DNA from: Gemmatimonadaceae bacterium
GTDB taxonomy: Bacteria > Gemmatimonadota > Gemmatimonadetes > Gemmatimonadales > Gemmatimonadaceae
Reading direction: 5' to 3'
NCBI GenBank assembly: GCA_035533015.1
Contig: DATLUQ010000051.1
Location: 62,001 to 126,000 of the forward strand
DNA: 64,000 nt
Shown here: positions 5,576-39,292 of the stretch, piece by piece
Layout: every line of letters starts with the position of its first letter
Numbering within the stretch: the stretch's first letter is position 1
Notes under the pieces: model-generated
Told to the model about the DNA's origin: nothing
Database searches by the model: none
The model's input: the letters and a program-made list of their open reading frames with translations, nothing else
Program-made: the position numbers and the translations under genes

Positions 5576-6700
5576 TCAGAGCAGCCGGCCGATCCAATCG
5601 CCCACCAGGTAGCCCGCCGCCGCAACACCCAGACCGACGACGAACATATCGATCCCGGACCGGAACACGCCGCGTCCAGTGAACACGGAGCGCGCGGCCC
5701 CCACGAGCCAGTGCGAGAGCATGGCGATCGCGAACGAGATCACGATAGCCGTGGTGCCCGACCAGAACAGGAACGGCGCCACGGGGATGAACGCGCCCAC
5801 GGCTGTCGCCGTGCCCGTCACCCACCCCTCGCGCAGCGGCGACATGCTCCGCTCGCCGATCCCCAACTCCTCCTGCACCTGCTCGTCGAGCATTCGTCGC
5901 GGGTCGGCCATCACGTCCGTGGCCAGCGCGTGGGCGGAATCGGCGTCCATCCCCTTGGCCTGGTAGATGAGCGCGAGCTCGTCGCGCTCCACCTCGGGCA
6001 TCAGCGCGATCTCGTCGCGCTCCATCGCGATCTCGTGCGCGTATACTTCCTGCTCGCTCTTCGCCGCCAGGTACCCGCTCGATCCCATGGACAGCGAGTC
6101 GGCGATAAGCCCTGCTACACCTGCCACGATCACCGCGTGCGCTTGGTTGTTCGCCGAGGCGCCGATCACGCCGGCCACGAGGCCGAAGTTGGCCGTGAGT
6201 CCGTCGTTGAACCCATACACTACGTTGCGCAAGAATCCGCCCGACTCGGCACGGTGCCATGGCTCCCCTTCACGACCGGCCATCGTACCGAGCGTGCTGG
6301 CATGTTCCGCCGATTCGCGCGCCAGCGTCAGCGATTCGTCGCGCCCCGGCGCGCCCTTCGTGGTGCCGCGATGCATCTGGAGGTAGCTACGCACTTCGCG
6401 CCCTTCTTCGGCGAGCAACATTGGCAGCAGAAAGTTCGGCCCCAGCCAGCGTCCGAGGAGTGCGAGCAGGCGGGTGCGCGCCGTGGGCCGGAATTCTCGA
6501 ACCGGACGCCCATTGTCGGCCAGCAAACCGGCCCAGATGGTGGTATGACGGTCCTCGACCTCCGCCAATTCGAGATAGATGTGCTTCTTCTTAGCATCGG
6601 CCTCGAAGCCGGCCAGGACGCGGTACAGGTAGGCCGCGTCGGCCTCGTCCTGCCAGTGGTCGAGGAATGCGTCGAGGTCGGGGGTTGGGGTGGGGGGCAT
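5576..6700 (-). CDS. Ferritin-like/VIT1 (Er-VIT1, MbfA-type) metal transporter
   Basis: The 374-residue protein has two parts. Residues 1 to about 150 are helical and ferritin/rubrerythrin-like, with DEADAAYLYRVLAGFE, LELAEVEDRHTTIW and later ARESAEHAS supplying E and ExxH-type di-metal ligands. Residues from about 155 match the VIT1/CCC1 family, with five predicted helices, FLRNVVYGFNDGLTANFGL at the start, and GLIADSLSMGSSGYLAAKSE. In characterised MbfA-type relatives this fusion exports iron or manganese across the inner membrane, with the cytosolic ferritin-like domain sensing or delivering metal. The frame is open up to 6892, but the ATG at 6700 (MPPTPTPDLDAF) begins the conserved part; the longer version is low-complexity and overlaps the divergent gene. 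Confidence 0.88.
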   Translation of the reverse strand: MPPTPTPDLDAFLDHWQDEADAAYLYRVLAGFEADAKKKHIYLELAEVEDRHTTIWAGLLADNGRPVREFRPTARTRLLALLGRWLGPNFLLPMLLAEEGREVRSYLQMHRGTTKGAPGRDESLTLARESAEHASTLGTMAGREGEPWHRAESGGFLRNVVYGFNDGLTANFGLVAGVIGASANNQAHAVIVAGVAGLIADSLSMGSSGYLAAKSEQEVYAHEIAMERDEIALMPEVERDELALIYQAKGMDADSAHALATDVMADPRRMLDEQVQEELGIGERSMSPLREGWVTGTATAVGAFIPVAPFLFWSGTTAIVISFAIAMLSHWLVGAARSVFTGRGVFRSGIDMFVVGLGVAAAGYLVGDWIGRLL

Positions 6701-6726
6701 GGGCAGAAATATGGCGGAGTGAGAGT

Positions 6727-6790
6727 GGGACGGTAGGACGGTGAGAGGGATAACTGCCCACCGCAGTTCCCGTCCCACGGTCCTACGGTC
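6727..6790. repeat. Inverted GGTAGGAC-type repeat in intergenic region
   Basis: Between the divergent VIT1 and PDZ genes, GGACGGTAGGACGGT at about 6730-6745 is followed about 30 bp later by ACGGTCCTACGGTC, a near inverted copy (12 of 14 positions). Between them lies AACTGCCCACCGCAGTT. The same building blocks, a GGTAGGAC tandem unit and an AACTGC/ACCGC module, recur inside imuB at 37145-37200. This suggests a dispersed repeat family in this genome. It could form a hairpin in either transcript. Confidence 0.55.
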
Positions 6791-6879
6791 TGACCGGCCT
6801 ACCGGTGTTTTCCGTAAACCCTTCGTGGGTGCAGCTGTGTCCATTCCACAGTAGCCCCCAACCGAAGCACTGAGGAACC

Positions 6880-8058
6880 ATGCGCAACACATTCTGCATC
6901 ATGCTCTTGCTCACGGCCGGCACCGTCGCACCGGCCGCGGCTCAGGTCACCGTTCGTACCATGCCGGGGTCCGGCGTACGTAGCCTCTCGTGGACTCGCG
7001 TGCTCGCTCCCACGGCCGTGATCGGAGTGACCACTTCAGCGGGCGACGCGCGCGACACACTGGGTCTCCTCGTGACGGACGTGGCCGCCAAAGGGCCTGC
7101 CGCCAAGGCGGGCATCCAGGAAGGCGACCGCATCCAGTCCATAAACGGCATCGATCTCAAGCTCGCACCGATCGACATCGGAGATGAGGAGATGGCCAAT
7201 GCCATGTCAAACCGGTTGACGCGCGAACTGGGCAAGCTCACGGTTGGCGACAACGTGTCGCTCAGCGTCTACCACAACGGCCAAGTGAAACCGGTGGTCA
7301 TCAAGACCGTGAGTTCCGGCGATCTGTACGGCAACCCGGCCGGCATGATGCGCATGGCCGAGGACAACCGGGCCATGCTTGGCGTCTCGCTTTCGGTGAC
7401 CGGCAGCAAACGCGACACCCTCGGCGTGCTCGTTGTTGCCGTGGACGACAGCGGGCCGGCGGCCAAGGCTGGGCTCGAGGAGGGCAATCGACTCGCCGCG
7501 ATCAACGGCGTGAATCTCAAGGTCGATCGCGAGGACGCCGGCGACCGATACGTGGCCGAGGCGCGTTACCAGCGCCTACAGAAGGAGATGGCCAAGGTCA
7601 AACCCGGCGACGACGTGACGCTGCAGGTCTATGCGGACGGTCACTTCAAGACGGTCCACGTGAAGGCCACCAAGGCGTCGGAGCTGGGCAACGCCGGCAC
7701 CACGTTCATGTTCCGTGGCGACGGAGCCCCGATGATGCAGTTCAACGTGAACAGCCAACAGGTCCGCGCGCAGGTGCAGCGCGCCATGGACCAGGTGCGG
7801 CAGGAGATGCAGCGGGTGCGCATCGAAGCCCCGGCGCCCCGCGTGCGCTGGTTGGACGACAGCGCCGCACCGGCGGTGATCAGCAAATTCATCCCGTCGC
7901 CGGAACCGGCTCCTGCGACGACGGCCGCTCCGGAGGCTCCTGCGGCGCCGAGCATGTCTGCCCTACCCGTGATCGCCCGGATCCGCGCGTCGCGCGCTGC
8001 CATGATGCTCCGGCCTGTGCTCGCTTCCCCGGCACCGATTCGCATCATCAGGTTCTGA
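6880..8058 (+). CDS. Secreted protein with two PDZ domains
   Basis: This 392-residue protein has a signal peptide (MRNTFCIMLLLTAGTVAPAAAQ). Two homologous PDZ repeats follow: about 45-145 with DTLGLLVTDVAAKGPAAKAGIQ, and about 165-270 with DTLGVLVVAVDDSGPAAKAGLE. Each contains a carboxylate-binding-like loop and a GDRIQSING or GNRLAAING segment. The C-terminal third is proline- and alanine-rich, with a helical MQRVRIEAPAPR stretch. No protease domain is present, so it is probably a periplasmic scaffold or binding protein rather than a DegP/HtrA enzyme. The two PDZ units look like an internal duplication. Function is unknown. Confidence 0.8.
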   Translation: MRNTFCIMLLLTAGTVAPAAAQVTVRTMPGSGVRSLSWTRVLAPTAVIGVTTSAGDARDTLGLLVTDVAAKGPAAKAGIQEGDRIQSINGIDLKLAPIDIGDEEMANAMSNRLTRELGKLTVGDNVSLSVYHNGQVKPVVIKTVSSGDLYGNPAGMMRMAEDNRAMLGVSLSVTGSKRDTLGVLVVAVDDSGPAAKAGLEEGNRLAAINGVNLKVDREDAGDRYVAEARYQRLQKEMAKVKPGDDVTLQVYADGHFKTVHVKATKASELGNAGTTFMFRGDGAPMMQFNVNSQQVRAQVQRAMDQVRQEMQRVRIEAPAPRVRWLDDSAAPAVISKFIPSPEPAPATTAAPEAPAAPSMSALPVIARIRASRAAMMLRPVLASPAPIRIIRF

Positions 8059-33928: not shown

Positions 33929-36900
33929 TTAATGAAAGTCGTGCGACAGGTGTGCGATCTTCCGGCCCCCCTCCAGCACCGTCAACTCCCGGAACTTCCG
34001 CCCCACGACATTCACCGCCCCCGAGTCCTTTTCCAATCTCCCCTGCACGAGCACGAACGGCGCCCGCTTCACGACCTCCTCGTTCGCCGCCACCAGGCTC
34101 TTATGCACCACGATGTTCACGAACCCCCATTCGTCTTCCAGCAACAGGAAAATCGTCCCCCCGGCGGTGCTCGGCCGCTGCCGCACCGTGACCAGCCCCC
34201 CGATCGTCACTGTCCGCCCAGTCGGCAGCCCGGCCAGATCCCGGCTCGACACTGCCCCTCCCGCCTCCAGCCTCGCCCGCGCCACTTGCATCGGATGCCC
34301 GTCCAGACTCAACCCGATGGCGTAGTAATCGAGCAGCACCTGGCGGTCCCGATCCATCGGCGGCGGATCGTGCAACTCCCGTGATGCCGGTGCCAGGGAC
34401 AAGAGATCCCCAACCGCCCTGAGCCCCTCCCACGCGGCATGCCGCCGGTCTGGCGCCCATACTCCAAGCGCCCCCGCCTGCGCGAACGCCAACACGTCCG
34501 CCCGCGACAACCTGGCCCGCCGCACCACATCCGCAATCGAGATGAACGGTCCGGCCATCCGCGCATCCTTCAGCGCGTCGATCACCCGCGTACCGACGCT
34601 CCGCACGTGCCGCCACCCGATCCTCAACGCCGGCCGCGCCGGATCCGCGGTTTCCTCCACGCTGCACTCCCAATCCCCGTCGCGCAGGCATGGCGGCAGC
34701 AACGGCACGCCATGCCGCTTGGCATCGTGGATCAGCGTCGAGACCGGATAGAACCCCATCGGCCACGAATTCAGCAATCCGTAAAAGAATTCGGTCGGGT
34801 AATGCGCCTTCAACCACGCCGTGGCATATGCGATGAGCGCAAAGCTCCACGCGTGCGACTCGGGAAACCCGTAGTTCGCGAAGCTCACGAGGTCGGCGCA
34901 GATCCGGTCGGCGACGTCGCCCTTCACCCCGTGCTCCACCATCGCCGCGCGCAGTCTGGTGAGCGCCCCCACCAACCGCTCCTTCTTCCGGATGTTCCCC
35001 ATGGTCCGGCGCAGCTCGTCGGCCTGGCTGCCGGTATAGCCGCCCAGCGCCATGGCGATGGCCATGGCCTGCTCCTGGAAGATCGGAATTCCCTGCGTGC
35101 GCTCGAGAATGGGTTCGAGCGCCGGGTGCAGATAGGTCACCGGCTCGCGACCCAGCCGCCGCTCGGTGTACGGATGCACGAACTTCGCCTGGATGGGCCC
35201 CGGCCGTATCAACGCCACCTGCACCACGATGTCGTACAACCGCTCGGGCTTGGTCTTGAGAATGGATCCGATCTGCGCCCGGCTCTCGATCTGGAACGTG
35301 CCGATGGTCTCCCCGCTCTGGATCAACTCATAGGTCTTCTTATCATCGTACGGCAGCGCGTACATCACCGGACGCGCACCCCCCCGCCGCTCGATCACGT
35401 CAAAGGCACGCCGTATGGCTGACAATCCACCCAATCCCAGAAAATCGAACTTGGGCACGCCCACGGCATCGAGATCGTCTTTGTCGAACTGCACGATGGT
35501 CCGACCCATCGCGGTCTGCTCGATGGGCAGATAGCTCCCCAACGCCTGCGCCGACAACACGAACCCGCCCACGTGCGTGGACCGCATGCGCGGCACACCG
35601 TCGAATGCCGCGATTCCCCTCAACAGTGCCTGCGCCCGCGCGTCGCCCACGTCCAGCCCCTGCTCGGCGCCCAGTCCGTTGCGGATGGCCTCCGCCGCCT
35701 CTGCGGGCTCGGCGTGATGTAAGCGTTTTGATATGGAGACGGCGAGTTCCGGCGGGTACCCGAACGCCCGCATCGCGTCCTGCACGGCGTTGGGCGCGCG
35801 GTAGGTCTGCACGGTGCAGGCGATGGCTGCCTTCTCGCGCGCGTAGTTCGCGTACATGTAGTCGAGCACCTCCTCGCGCCGGTTGTGTTCGAAGTCCACG
35901 TCGATGTCGGGCGCCTCGGCCTTCCCGTCCACGCGCACCTCGCTCAGGAAGCGCTCGAACAACAGCCCGTGCTCCACCGGATCCACCGCCGTGACCCCCA
36001 GGCAAAACGCGGTCACCGAATTCGCGGCGCTCCCGCGCCCCTGACAGAGAATTCCCCGCCCGCGGGCGAACCGCACGGCGTCCCACATCACGAGAAAGAA
36101 CCCCGCGAAGCCGAGCCGGTTGATCACCGCCAGCTCGTGCTCGATCTGCGCGGCCTGCCGGGGCGTGACCGCGCCGCCCCACCGCTCGCGCGCCCCGATG
36201 TACACCTGCTCGCGCAGGAAGGTGATGTCGTTGTGGTTGGCCGGAACGGCGTACCTGGGCATCGGTGGACGCATCCACGCGAAATCCGCGGGCTCGCACT
36301 CGGCTGCGATGCGCGCACTCTCGCACAACCCCTCCGTGCGCCCTCGCCATCGCCGCTCCATCTCGCAGGGCGCGAGCAGGCGCCATTCACCATTCGGATG
36401 CAGCACGCCATGCGCCGCCGCTTCATCAATGGTCAGCTCGGCCCTCAGCGCGGTGAGCATGTCGTGCACCAACCGCCCGCCCTCATCCACGTACCGCGGG
36501 TCGTGCGTCACCACCCACGGCACGCGCTCACGCTCGGCCAGCGACACGAGTGCGCCGGCCAGCGCCGCCTCCGCGCCCCCGGTGTGATGCAGCTGCACCT
36601 CCACGGCCAGCCGGTCGCCGAATACCTCGTACCAATCGCCGAGCAGGCGGCGCGCACCGCTGTCGTCGCCAGCCCGGATACGCGACGCGAGCGGACCCGA
36701 CCCAGGGCCGGTGAGCGCGTGCACCCCCTCGGCGTGCCGTGCCACCTGCTGCCACGTCACGCCGGCATGACCGCGGCGCCGGTGCTGTGCGTCCTTGTCC
36801 CAGGCAGTCCAGCTGCCCACCCGCGCCGCGGTGACGAGTGCCGCGACATTCCGATAGCCCTGCGCGTTGCGGGCCAGGAACGCGCAGGGCATGCCGTCCA

Positions 36901-37111
36901 CGTTGATCTCCGCGCCGACGATCAGCTCGAGCGGCGGATCGCACGCCCGTGCGGCGAGTTGCGCGCGCACGATGGCGCCGAGATCTGCGTTGTCCGTAAT
37001 GGCGATTCTGCGGTAGCCGAGATTGTGCGCCCTGGCAATGAGCGACTCGGGTGTGGCGCTCCCATCGCCAAAGGAAAAGGCAGTGTGCCCGCGGAGTTCC
37101 GCGTACGGCAT
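33929..37111 (-). CDS. dnaE2: Error-prone DNA polymerase DnaE2
   Basis: This 1060-residue polymerase of the C family is the catalytic partner in the ImuA/ImuB/DnaE2 mutasome, used for translesion synthesis after damage. The PHP domain is N-terminal (ELRGHTAFSFGDGSATPESL); the first His of the usual HxH pair is Arg here, so PHP metal binding is probably lost. The polymerase core has GRGSAANSVTAFCLG and the catalytic aspartates in APDIDVDFEHNRREEVLDYM. Later come GIPIFQEQAMAIAMALGGY and a C-terminal OB fold (VTIGGLVTVRQRPSTAGGTIF). It starts 3 bp past the imuB stop, so the genes are one operon. The length is slightly short for DnaE2. Confidence 0.96.
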   Translation of the reverse strand: MPYAELRGHTAFSFGDGSATPESLIARAHNLGYRRIAITDNADLGAIVRAQLAARACDPPLELIVGAEINVDGMPCAFLARNAQGYRNVAALVTAARVGSWTAWDKDAQHRRRGHAGVTWQQVARHAEGVHALTGPGSGPLASRIRAGDDSGARRLLGDWYEVFGDRLAVEVQLHHTGGAEAALAGALVSLAERERVPWVVTHDPRYVDEGGRLVHDMLTALRAELTIDEAAAHGVLHPNGEWRLLAPCEMERRWRGRTEGLCESARIAAECEPADFAWMRPPMPRYAVPANHNDITFLREQVYIGARERWGGAVTPRQAAQIEHELAVINRLGFAGFFLVMWDAVRFARGRGILCQGRGSAANSVTAFCLGVTAVDPVEHGLLFERFLSEVRVDGKAEAPDIDVDFEHNRREEVLDYMYANYAREKAAIACTVQTYRAPNAVQDAMRAFGYPPELAVSISKRLHHAEPAEAAEAIRNGLGAEQGLDVGDARAQALLRGIAAFDGVPRMRSTHVGGFVLSAQALGSYLPIEQTAMGRTIVQFDKDDLDAVGVPKFDFLGLGGLSAIRRAFDVIERRGGARPVMYALPYDDKKTYELIQSGETIGTFQIESRAQIGSILKTKPERLYDIVVQVALIRPGPIQAKFVHPYTERRLGREPVTYLHPALEPILERTQGIPIFQEQAMAIAMALGGYTGSQADELRRTMGNIRKKERLVGALTRLRAAMVEHGVKGDVADRICADLVSFANYGFPESHAWSFALIAYATAWLKAHYPTEFFYGLLNSWPMGFYPVSTLIHDAKRHGVPLLPPCLRDGDWECSVEETADPARPALRIGWRHVRSVGTRVIDALKDARMAGPFISIADVVRRARLSRADVLAFAQAGALGVWAPDRRHAAWEGLRAVGDLLSLAPASRELHDPPPMDRDRQVLLDYYAIGLSLDGHPMQVARARLEAGGAVSSRDLAGLPTGRTVTIGGLVTVRQRPSTAGGTIFLLLEDEWGFVNIVVHKSLVAANEEVVKRAPFVLVQGRLEKDSGAVNVVGRKFRELTVLEGGRKIAHLSHDFH

Positions 37112-37114
37112 GGA

Positions 37115-38515
37115 TCAGTCCCACCAGCCGTGGAGGTACCAACCGGTAGGACGGTAGGACGGTAGGACGGTAGGAGGGGAAACCGCTAACTGCGAACCGC
37201 CGACCTCCAACTGTGAACCGCCACCGCTCCCCACCGCATCGCGATACAACCACACCAGCGTGCCGTCCTCCCGCACACACCGGAAATACTCGCGCGCGTA
37301 TGGGCCGCCCTGTTCCCACTGGCCTCCCGACACACGTTCGGGGCCGGCGGCGTCCACGATCGCGTACGACGTCTGGCCATCCCGATACTGCACCGGCACC
37401 TGATGATCCCGGCGCTCCGCCGTGCGCACGGACACGGGCCGCGGCGGTGACACGAGCTGCAGCGTGAGCCGCGGGGTGGGTCTTGCCCCGCTCTGCGCCT
37501 TGGCCACGCCGCGTTCCCCGCTCGTTGCCGCCACCGCAGGATCTTCTCGTGTCCACTCCGTGCGCGCGTCCACGAGCGGGTGTGCCGAATTCCTGGGGGT
37601 GAGCACCACGTCGCCCTGGTCGTCCATCAACTGCGATACGGCGCGCTCCACCTGCGGCGCGCTGGCAAATCCCTTGTCGAACAGGTCGCCCTGCACGCCG
37701 TCGTTGCCGATCGCCGACTCCACGCATAGCGTCACGCCGGTGACCGCGTCGGGGAGCGTGATGCGGTCGAGCGCGGTGCGAATGAGCCGCATCCAAGCCT
37801 TCTGGCTGGCCGTGGGGCGCGCCGAGCGAATGCGGTGCACGAACTCGGTACGGTCGGCGAGCGCGAAGGCGAGCGACACCTCGCGTGCCCGGTGCCCGCC
37901 GGCGGCGAGCGCGTCGCACACGGTGGCGGCCTGCGCGTTCACCACGAACAGCAACCGTTCGGCGTCCCGCAACGCGTAGTCCACCCAGTCGACGGACGCG
38001 CTGGGGAGCGCGCGGGCGGGCGACGCGAAGAGCAGCCGCGGATCGTCGGCCCGGGCGAGCTTCCACAGTCGGACACCTTCGGCGCCCATTAGTATTTCTA
38101 TACTAGCCGCGTCGAGGGCGGCCAGCGCGCCGCAGGTCTCCACGCCGATGCCGTCGAGCAGGTGGTCGAGCAATGTCGATGGATCCAGAACGTCTATCGG
38201 AAACGGCGCCATGAAGTCGCGGTCGTGCCCCGGCTTCACGATGGTGAACGGGATACGGCGCTGCGTGGCCGCCAACTCGGCGGCGATCGCCGTGGTGGCG
38301 GCGCCGGCGTGCGCGTTGGAATAGCCGTGACGGTGTGCCACGTCCACGAGCGTCAGGGCGAGGGCGCCCGCGTCGAGGCCGCGTGCGTCGGCCCACACGC
38401 GGCCGCCGGCGCCGAGGCGCACGCGCGGGACGTGCTGCAGTAGATCGGTGATCAGTTCAGCGGGAAACGCCGCGCCGGTCGGCCAGCTCGGGCTCCAGAG
38501 ACAGACGTAACTCAT
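37115..38515 (-). CDS. imuB: ImuB, Y-family-like mutasome protein with repeat-bearing C-terminal insert
   Basis: This 466-residue inactive Y-family relative bridges DnaE2 and the beta clamp. It begins MSYVCLWSPSWPTGA, and the catalytic carboxylates of true Y polymerases are not seen. The palm and little-finger-like regions are followed by a QGDLF motif (in GVQGDLFDKGF), a plausible clamp-binding QxxLF. Near the end REYFRCVREDGTLVWLYRD and WYLHGWWD match the conserved ImuB tail. Between them sit about 30 extra residues (AVGSGGGSQLEVGGSQLAV and PPTVLPSYRPT). These are encoded by a GGTTC-CAGTT duplication and an 8-bp tandem repeat. Its start overlaps imuA by 59 bp. Confidence 0.93.
   Translation of the reverse strand: MSYVCLWSPSWPTGAAFPAELITDLLQHVPRVRLGAGGRVWADARGLDAGALALTLVDVAHRHGYSNAHAGAATTAIAAELAATQRRIPFTIVKPGHDRDFMAPFPIDVLDPSTLLDHLLDGIGVETCGALAALDAASIEILMGAEGVRLWKLARADDPRLLFASPARALPSASVDWVDYALRDAERLLFVVNAQAATVCDALAAGGHRAREVSLAFALADRTEFVHRIRSARPTASQKAWMRLIRTALDRITLPDAVTGVTLCVESAIGNDGVQGDLFDKGFASAPQVERAVSQLMDDQGDVVLTPRNSAHPLVDARTEWTREDPAVAATSGERGVAKAQSGARPTPRLTLQLVSPPRPVSVRTAERRDHQVPVQYRDGQTSYAIVDAAGPERVSGGQWEQGGPYAREYFRCVREDGTLVWLYRDAVGSGGGSQLEVGGSQLAVSPPTVLPSYRPTGWYLHGWWD
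37145..37176. repeat. 8-bp tandem repeat GGTAGGAC x4 inside imuB
   Basis: GGTAGGAC occurs three times, followed by GGTAGGAG, in exact register. It lies about 30 bp before the imuB stop and 35 bp before the dnaE2 start. Because 8 is not a multiple of 3, gain or loss of one unit would shift the imuB frame. Just upstream in the gene, GGTTC(A/G)CAGTT occurs twice, 20 bp apart. Similar units occur at 6727-6790. Confidence 0.85.
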
Positions 38516-39161
38516 GATGCGTGACCGGAAGAACGAATGCGGCATGCGCCTGCCACCCGAGAGCCACCGCGTCCACGCGCACGCGGGCGTGCGTGATCTC
38601 GGCGGGGTCGCCGAACGGCGTGCGCGTGTAGCGGTAGTCCGCGGGTTGAATGCGCGAGGTGAGCTTCAAGGCCGACATCGCGGCGTGCGTGGTGAGCGCG
38701 ACGAGCGCGCTCCCGCCGTCGCGCGTGGCGCGGGTGAGACGGACGGTCTCCTGTCCCTTGGGTTCCGCACCGGCCAGCACGACGAGCGCGAACCCGCCCG
38801 AGCGCAGTAACTCCTCAGCCGATCGCAGCGCATTGAGTCGGCTGGAGGGGCGGACGAGCAGGGGGCCATCGTCCCAGAACGCGCCGGCCACGGTGCCGAC
38901 GCTGTCGATCCAGGCGGCACGCTCGCCGACGGCCAGGATACCCTGGCAGGCGGCGCGGAGGATGGCGGTCGCGCCGCCGTGTGGCGCCCAGACGGATAGC
39001 CGGCCGCGGGGAAGTCCTCCGCTGGGCAAGGCCTGGTCGAGCTGGGCAATGCCCGTGGCTAATTGGGTGGCGGCCCGCCGAGTGATGGGCGAGGCATCGG
39101 GAAAGCGCTCCTCGAGGAGGGCACGGAGGGCAAGAAGGTCCTGGGCAGCGGCGCCTGTCAT
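38457..39161 (-). CDS. imuA: ImuA-like RecA-fold mutasome protein
   Basis: This 234-residue RecA-like protein opens the mutasome operon. It contains LATGIAQLDQALPSGGLPRGRLSVWAP, the typical ImuA start of the RecA fold. The phosphate loop reads APHGGATAIL, so the lysine of GK(S/T) is missing and ATP binding is doubtful. The middle has GAFWDDGPLLVRP and the end HHELRLSLEPELADRRG. The ATG at 39161 gives a family-like start (MTGAAAQDLLALRALLEERF); the open frame runs upstream to 39266. Its 3' end overlaps imuB by 59 bp in another frame. I see no clear LexA box upstream, though SOS control would be expected. Confidence 0.82.
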   Translation of the reverse strand: MTGAAAQDLLALRALLEERFPDASPITRRAATQLATGIAQLDQALPSGGLPRGRLSVWAPHGGATAILRAACQGILAVGERAAWIDSVGTVAGAFWDDGPLLVRPSSRLNALRSAEELLRSGGFALVVLAGAEPKGQETVRLTRATRDGGSALVALTTHAAMSALKLTSRIQPADYRYTRTPFGDPAEITHARVRVDAVALGWQAHAAFVLPVTHHELRLSLEPELADRRGVSR

Positions 39162-39292
39162 ACCCGAATAAATACCGAAGATCAGAGGGCGTGGTAAGGG
39201 GTGCTGATGAACTTCTGGAGCCGGAGGATTTGGGCCGAGGGCCGGGAAGGCTCGACCGTTGGGCACCGATGCGGTCGCGCGGGAAGAAGTTC

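Follow-up and report, generated by a model that had tools for sequence, protein, structure and literature searches.

Rickettsia palindromic elements (RPE) are, according to a review, dispersed repeats that were inserted in frame in protein genes (PMC10969869, citing Ogata 2000, 2002). We analyzed a comparable case in a 64,000-nucleotide stretch of a Gemmatimonadaceae contig (the window), in which the imuB gene of a DNA-damage mutagenesis operon carries repeat DNA in the part that encodes the conserved C-terminus. The C-terminal region of ImuB (ImuB-C) has been discussed as the primary candidate for DnaE2 binding (PMC6511836), and a mycobacterial ImuB without the ImuB-C region still binds ImuA' (PMC11791113). 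Our preferred explanation, to which we assign a probability of about 0.8, is that half of a dispersed palindromic element specific to this genus was captured in frame, in a tolerant loop of an ancestral ImuB.

The imuB gene and the insert in its C-terminal tail

The imuB gene lies on the reverse strand between imuA and dnaE2 and encodes a Y-family fold followed by ImuB-C, which places it in the ImuB family (Table 1). The imuB stop codon is followed by 3 nt and then by the dnaE2 ATG at position 37111. At the other end of the gene, the ImuB proteins of relatives start with MSYVCLW, a point 10 codons downstream of the listed imuB start (window positions 38515-38545); judging from these homologous starts, the true start may be near 38515, and the overlap of imuB and imuA is probably shorter than annotated. 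Upon alignment of 29 ImuB orthologues, residues W469, G473, W475 and D476 of the terminal strand were found to be invariant. A Pfam search with the ImuB tail alone gave no family match for ImuB-C.

The earlier note, which was made from the letters of the sequence, had described an in-frame repeat insertion that splits this conserved C-terminus, and the alignment bore this out: 32 residues separate WLYRD (residues 432-436) from WYLHGWWD, so that the link is approximately 27 residues longer than in most relatives. The two components that had been named, four 8-bp units and a duplicated GGTTC-CAGTT element, were both present. In the reading direction of imuB, the octamer tract reads TCCTACCG and contains no stop in any frame. 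No other short tandem repeat of the window was as strong as this tract, which had a lag-8 run of 24 compared with at most 12 in 30 dinucleotide shuffles. The two copies of the second component are 20-21 nt each, 85% alike and in frame.

Table 1. Positions of the genes, the insert and the element copy in the window.
Feature	Position	Strand	Description	Evidence
imuB	37115..38545	-	476 aa, C-terminal end WYLHGWWD	IMS_C match and operon with imuA/dnaE2; alignment of 29 orthologues
dnaE2	33929..37111	-	Error-prone DNA polymerase	PRK05672, 1006 bits
imuA	38457..39266	-		Weak ImuA match, E 8.8e-9, and operon position
Conserved C-terminal strand WYLHGWWD	37118..37141	-	Residues 469-476, distal to the insert
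Insert-bearing link	37142..37237	-	ImuB residues 437-468, AVGSGGGSQLEVGGSQLAVSPPTVLPSYRPTG	Orthologue alignment; pLDDT <50 at 440-466
Four perfect CGGTAGGA 8-bp units	37144..37175	+		TRF; dispersed copies; covariance-model match E 8.6e-7
Degenerate two-copy GGTTCGCAGTT element	37182..37222	-	GGTTC(G/A)CAGTT type	Repeat search
Complete intergenic element copy	6717..6802		Between two divergently placed genes	Covariance model E 7.9e-14

An AlphaFold2 model of ImuB was built with 29 sequences and showed a mean pLDDT of 75 and a pTM of 0.42. In this model, the low-confidence residues formed a disordered loop between the strands at 430-436 and 469-475; the insert is thus predicted to lie, disordered, in the loop that joins the last two strands of the β-rich ImuB-C.

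Comparison of the ImuB tail with relatives and with a congener

The short link that had been taken as the norm of the family was seen in most orthologues, where 3-9 residues, for example WLYRDAREDEWYLHGWWD, stand in place of the insert, but not in six relatives, which have independent and clearly shorter expansions at the same point, one of them to a lesser degree. These independent expansions indicated that the loop is a place where length changes are tolerated. An alignment of the ImuB tails of related genomes, proposed earlier as a check, thus revealed a short link in other genera, and on the sequences compared only this genus has the long insert made of repeats. In other genera, we also observed short tandem units of their own directly behind the imuB stop (AGCTATC, GGAGTCA and AACTGCA-like, at four loci).

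Within the genus, imuB and dnaE2 were present in two of four genomes, our own (G000) and the congener G001, and both of these species, and only these, carry the insert. In G035 and G058, both incomplete assemblies (93% and 80%), we found no imuB and no close dnaE2 but only a distant homologue (32-33%); this pattern could reflect loss, gain or incomplete assembly. The G001 ImuB protein is 86% identical to our own and has the same insert, with a similar peptide in both species (GGSQ...SPPT.LPSYRPT). Its octamer tract also comprises four units, in which three substitutions break the repeat, and its third unit is TAGGGGGG, which is typical of the intergenic arms described below. In G001, the second half of the insert, its heptamer part, has 12 additional nt and is again in frame. 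Unit number and reading frame were therefore the same in both species. A frame kept since the insertion is the outcome that selection on the tail would be expected to give, although two sequences cannot prove selection.

A dispersed palindromic element of the genus

From the reading of sites, we found that the octamer belongs to an element in which two inverted arms, left GTAGGACG and right CGTCCTAC, face inward around a core near ACTGCGGAACGCCGT; each arm has about four 8-bp units. The arm 17-mer GTAGGACGGTAGGACGG was present in 12, 35, 5 and 2 copies in G000, G001, G035 and G058, respectively, and in none of the reversed controls of these four genomes. Its exact sequence was found in just two of 175 other genomes of the family, both of one other genus, and viral contigs gave 14 matches. 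A covariance model of the element, built without imuB in the training set, gave 87, 92, 45 and 16 matches in the same four genomes; since nearly every site was found on both strands, these numbers correspond to approximately 44 sites in G000 and 46 in G001. In the window, only the intergenic copy of Table 1 and, as the next best, the imuB insert had significant scores.

Three intergenic copies folded as hairpins (z-scores of -3.8, -10.4 and -7.5). In an RNAalifold consensus, 3 of 15 pairs were changed on both sides and the covariation term was +0.59; because this sign is wrong for support, a selected RNA structure of the element was not supported. An Rfam search of window positions 6500-7000, which include the complete copy, gave no match, and the titles and abstracts of the literature on Gemmatimonadota contained no description of such repeats.

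As evident from an exact match of the 17-mer, the imuB tract is an arm of this family, and it has the four units of such an arm. The insert contains one arm and no significant hairpin (z-score of -1.2), so a complete element inside imuB was rejected and the insert is a half-element instead of a full member. The origin of its second half is less clear-cut: compared with the element core, our own copy scored 6.1 bits, more than 1000 of 1000 shuffles, and the G001 copy gave no match. By sequence resemblance, this half may be a heptamer-type repeat or element core, and the insert may be a two-part chimera if it came from the separate heptamer family that is abundant in G058. No target-site duplication was seen at the imuB insert.

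Additionally, we observed related arrangements in other genomes. The second dispersed family of G058 is arranged in the same way, with inverted arms of 7 bp (AGTTGGC / GCCAACT), and is sparse in the congeners. In a genome of another genus (G063), elements of approximately 170 bp have outer arms made of octamers, inner arms that resemble heptamers, and a stem at the center. G063 and this genus have the octamer unit in common, and nearly all other genomes of the family are without it.

Position of the elements relative to genes and their spread between species

Genes around the elements were called with a simple codon-likelihood script. We found that 58 of 60 arm clusters were intergenic or overlapped just a gene end, the two exceptions being the two imuB genes. 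Likewise, all 21 further model sites examined in our own genome were intergenic, and many of them fill gaps of 47-200 bp. Of 56 genes that carry an arm at the 3' end, 25 have their stop codon within it, and TAG accounted for 57% of the stops of such arm-ended genes, against 27% for the remaining genes of these loci (p 1e-4). At five loci and others, the TAG stop of the neighboring gene was seen to be supplied by the element arm. It follows from its sequence that an arm read towards the gene end has a TAG in each frame within three units; the reverse orientation, which is that of imuB, is stop-free in all frames. This difference explains which arm orientation can live inside a gene.

The intergenic copy of the window is also filled in G001, and the same place is empty in G035 and G058; an array of our own genome is likewise absent in G001. 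Such empty sites in sister species indicated that the elements disperse. At another site, our own genome has a four-unit right arm only, whereas the orthologous site of G001 has a whole element, which provides a precedent for a lone arm or half-element. No IS200/REP-type (Y1_Tnp) transposase was found in the four genus genomes, which are incomplete assemblies, with the positive controls detected, and mobilization of the REP/RAYT type was therefore rejected. A broader reading, which we put a little short of even odds, is that an undescribed palindromic family, specific to the genus and with arms of tandem 8-bp units, spreads between genes by a non-RAYT route, takes over gene ends through the TAG stops that it supplies and now and then contributes peptide to proteins, ImuB being the captured case.

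Origin of the insert and alternative explanations

In the capture that we propose, one arm together with core- or heptamer-type sequence would have entered the last β-hairpin loop of ImuB-C before the split of G000 and G001. A half-element may have inserted as such, or a whole element may have inserted and subsequently lost its other arm. Three properties would account for the survival of the insert: in the orientation that imuB reads, no frame of the unit is closed, the inserted length is divisible by three, and the loop accommodates changes in length. The frame would have been kept since, possibly by selection, which would have left both the conserved C-terminal strand and the close spacing of imuB and dnaE2 intact, and the added peptide itself may be functionally neutral.

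The earlier note had raised a different possibility, namely that the mutagenesis cassette is itself slippage-prone. As a switch, the gain or loss of 8 bp would reversibly shift the frame, swap the ImuB tail for a long tail overlapping dnaE2 and thereby tune the activity of the mutasome. Four perfect units are indeed present in imuB, and the tail in question is the proposed DnaE2-binding module (PMC6511836). The predicted consequence of a single-unit change was also confirmed computationally: loss or gain of 8 bp removes WYLHGWWD and lets the frame run 587 or 193 nt, respectively, past the normal stop. However, four 8-bp units are a short tract for phase variation. The expected variability was not what we observed, since the sister species likewise has exactly four units, their repetition broken there by substitutions, and the insert otherwise differs in length by 12 nt, in frame. 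Moreover, unit number was equal at two orthologous intergenic arms (4 = 4 and 5 = 5), and the arm is found genome-wide outside genes. Octamer arms at dozens of intergenic sites of the genus and equal unit numbers at two of them show that the tract is neither specific to the cassette nor visibly hypervariable, and we consider a slippage switch very improbable.

Selection for the insert as a protein feature, such as a flexible linker or a short binding motif acquired for mutasome assembly, would agree with the kept frame and similar peptide in both imuB-bearing species and with the independent expansions of the same loop in other relatives. Against this, the insert has the sequence of a dispersed DNA repeat, is predicted to be disordered and is absent from most relatives, and its heptamer part differs by 12 nt between the sisters; we therefore regard this explanation as unlikely. 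The least probable alternative is that the units arose by chance or by a local tandem duplication de novo within imuB, with no connection to the intergenic elements. Local duplication can generate tandem units, and the heptamer part is only weakly related to the element core, but about 44 other sites of the same genome have arms built of exactly the imuB unit, the G001 gene carries the third unit of the intergenic arms, and the insert was matched by the covariance model.

With capture of a half-element as the preferred reading, a supposed mutation-rate switch becomes a clear case in which intergenic repeat DNA came to serve, or at least to be tolerated, as protein sequence by domestication, and the host of the captured repeat is a DNA-damage mutagenesis complex. 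More generally, the case points to a dispersed family of elements that influences where genes end and which stop codons they use in Gemmatimonadaceae, and the filled and empty sites of this family make its spread testable.

Comparison with known repeat systems

The insert and its family resemble RPE, the GGGAATC repeats of Xanthomonas and the TAACTGA repeats of Beggiatoaceae in kind, by analogy; we do not claim that they belong to those families by sequence. REP and BIME sequences with a RAYT (IS200-like) transposase are similar in being dispersed intergenic palindromes at gene borders, and they differ in that no Y1_Tnp gene was found in the four genomes searched and that the arms here are tandem octamers. 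The Xanthomonas heptamers also consist of short tandem units that are mostly intergenic and often form convergent inverted pairs near genes, but their unit is G-rich, 7 bp long and quadruplex-forming, with extensive length variation, compared with the 8-bp unit here (PMC4692102). The Beggiatoaceae repeats likewise contain a stop codon in one orientation, are readable in the other and slightly overlap gene ends; in contrast, they are 7-bp direct repeats directed towards start codons, with no palindrome described (PMC4679880). In the tandem repeats of Borg proteins, as outlined in PMC9879509, repeat DNA similarly creates a disordered protein segment, although these are rapidly evolving tandem arrays of extrachromosomal elements. 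Relative to RPE as summarized in the review cited above, the ImuB case involves one gene of those sampled, with one arm and no palindrome in the coding copy, and the arms are built of 8-bp tandem units; whereas RPE hit many unrelated genes, imuB stood alone among 60 arm clusters and 21 model sites. The likeness to RPE, as far as that review describes them (PMC10969869), is that a dispersed palindromic repeat lies in frame inside a protein gene and is apparently tolerated there.
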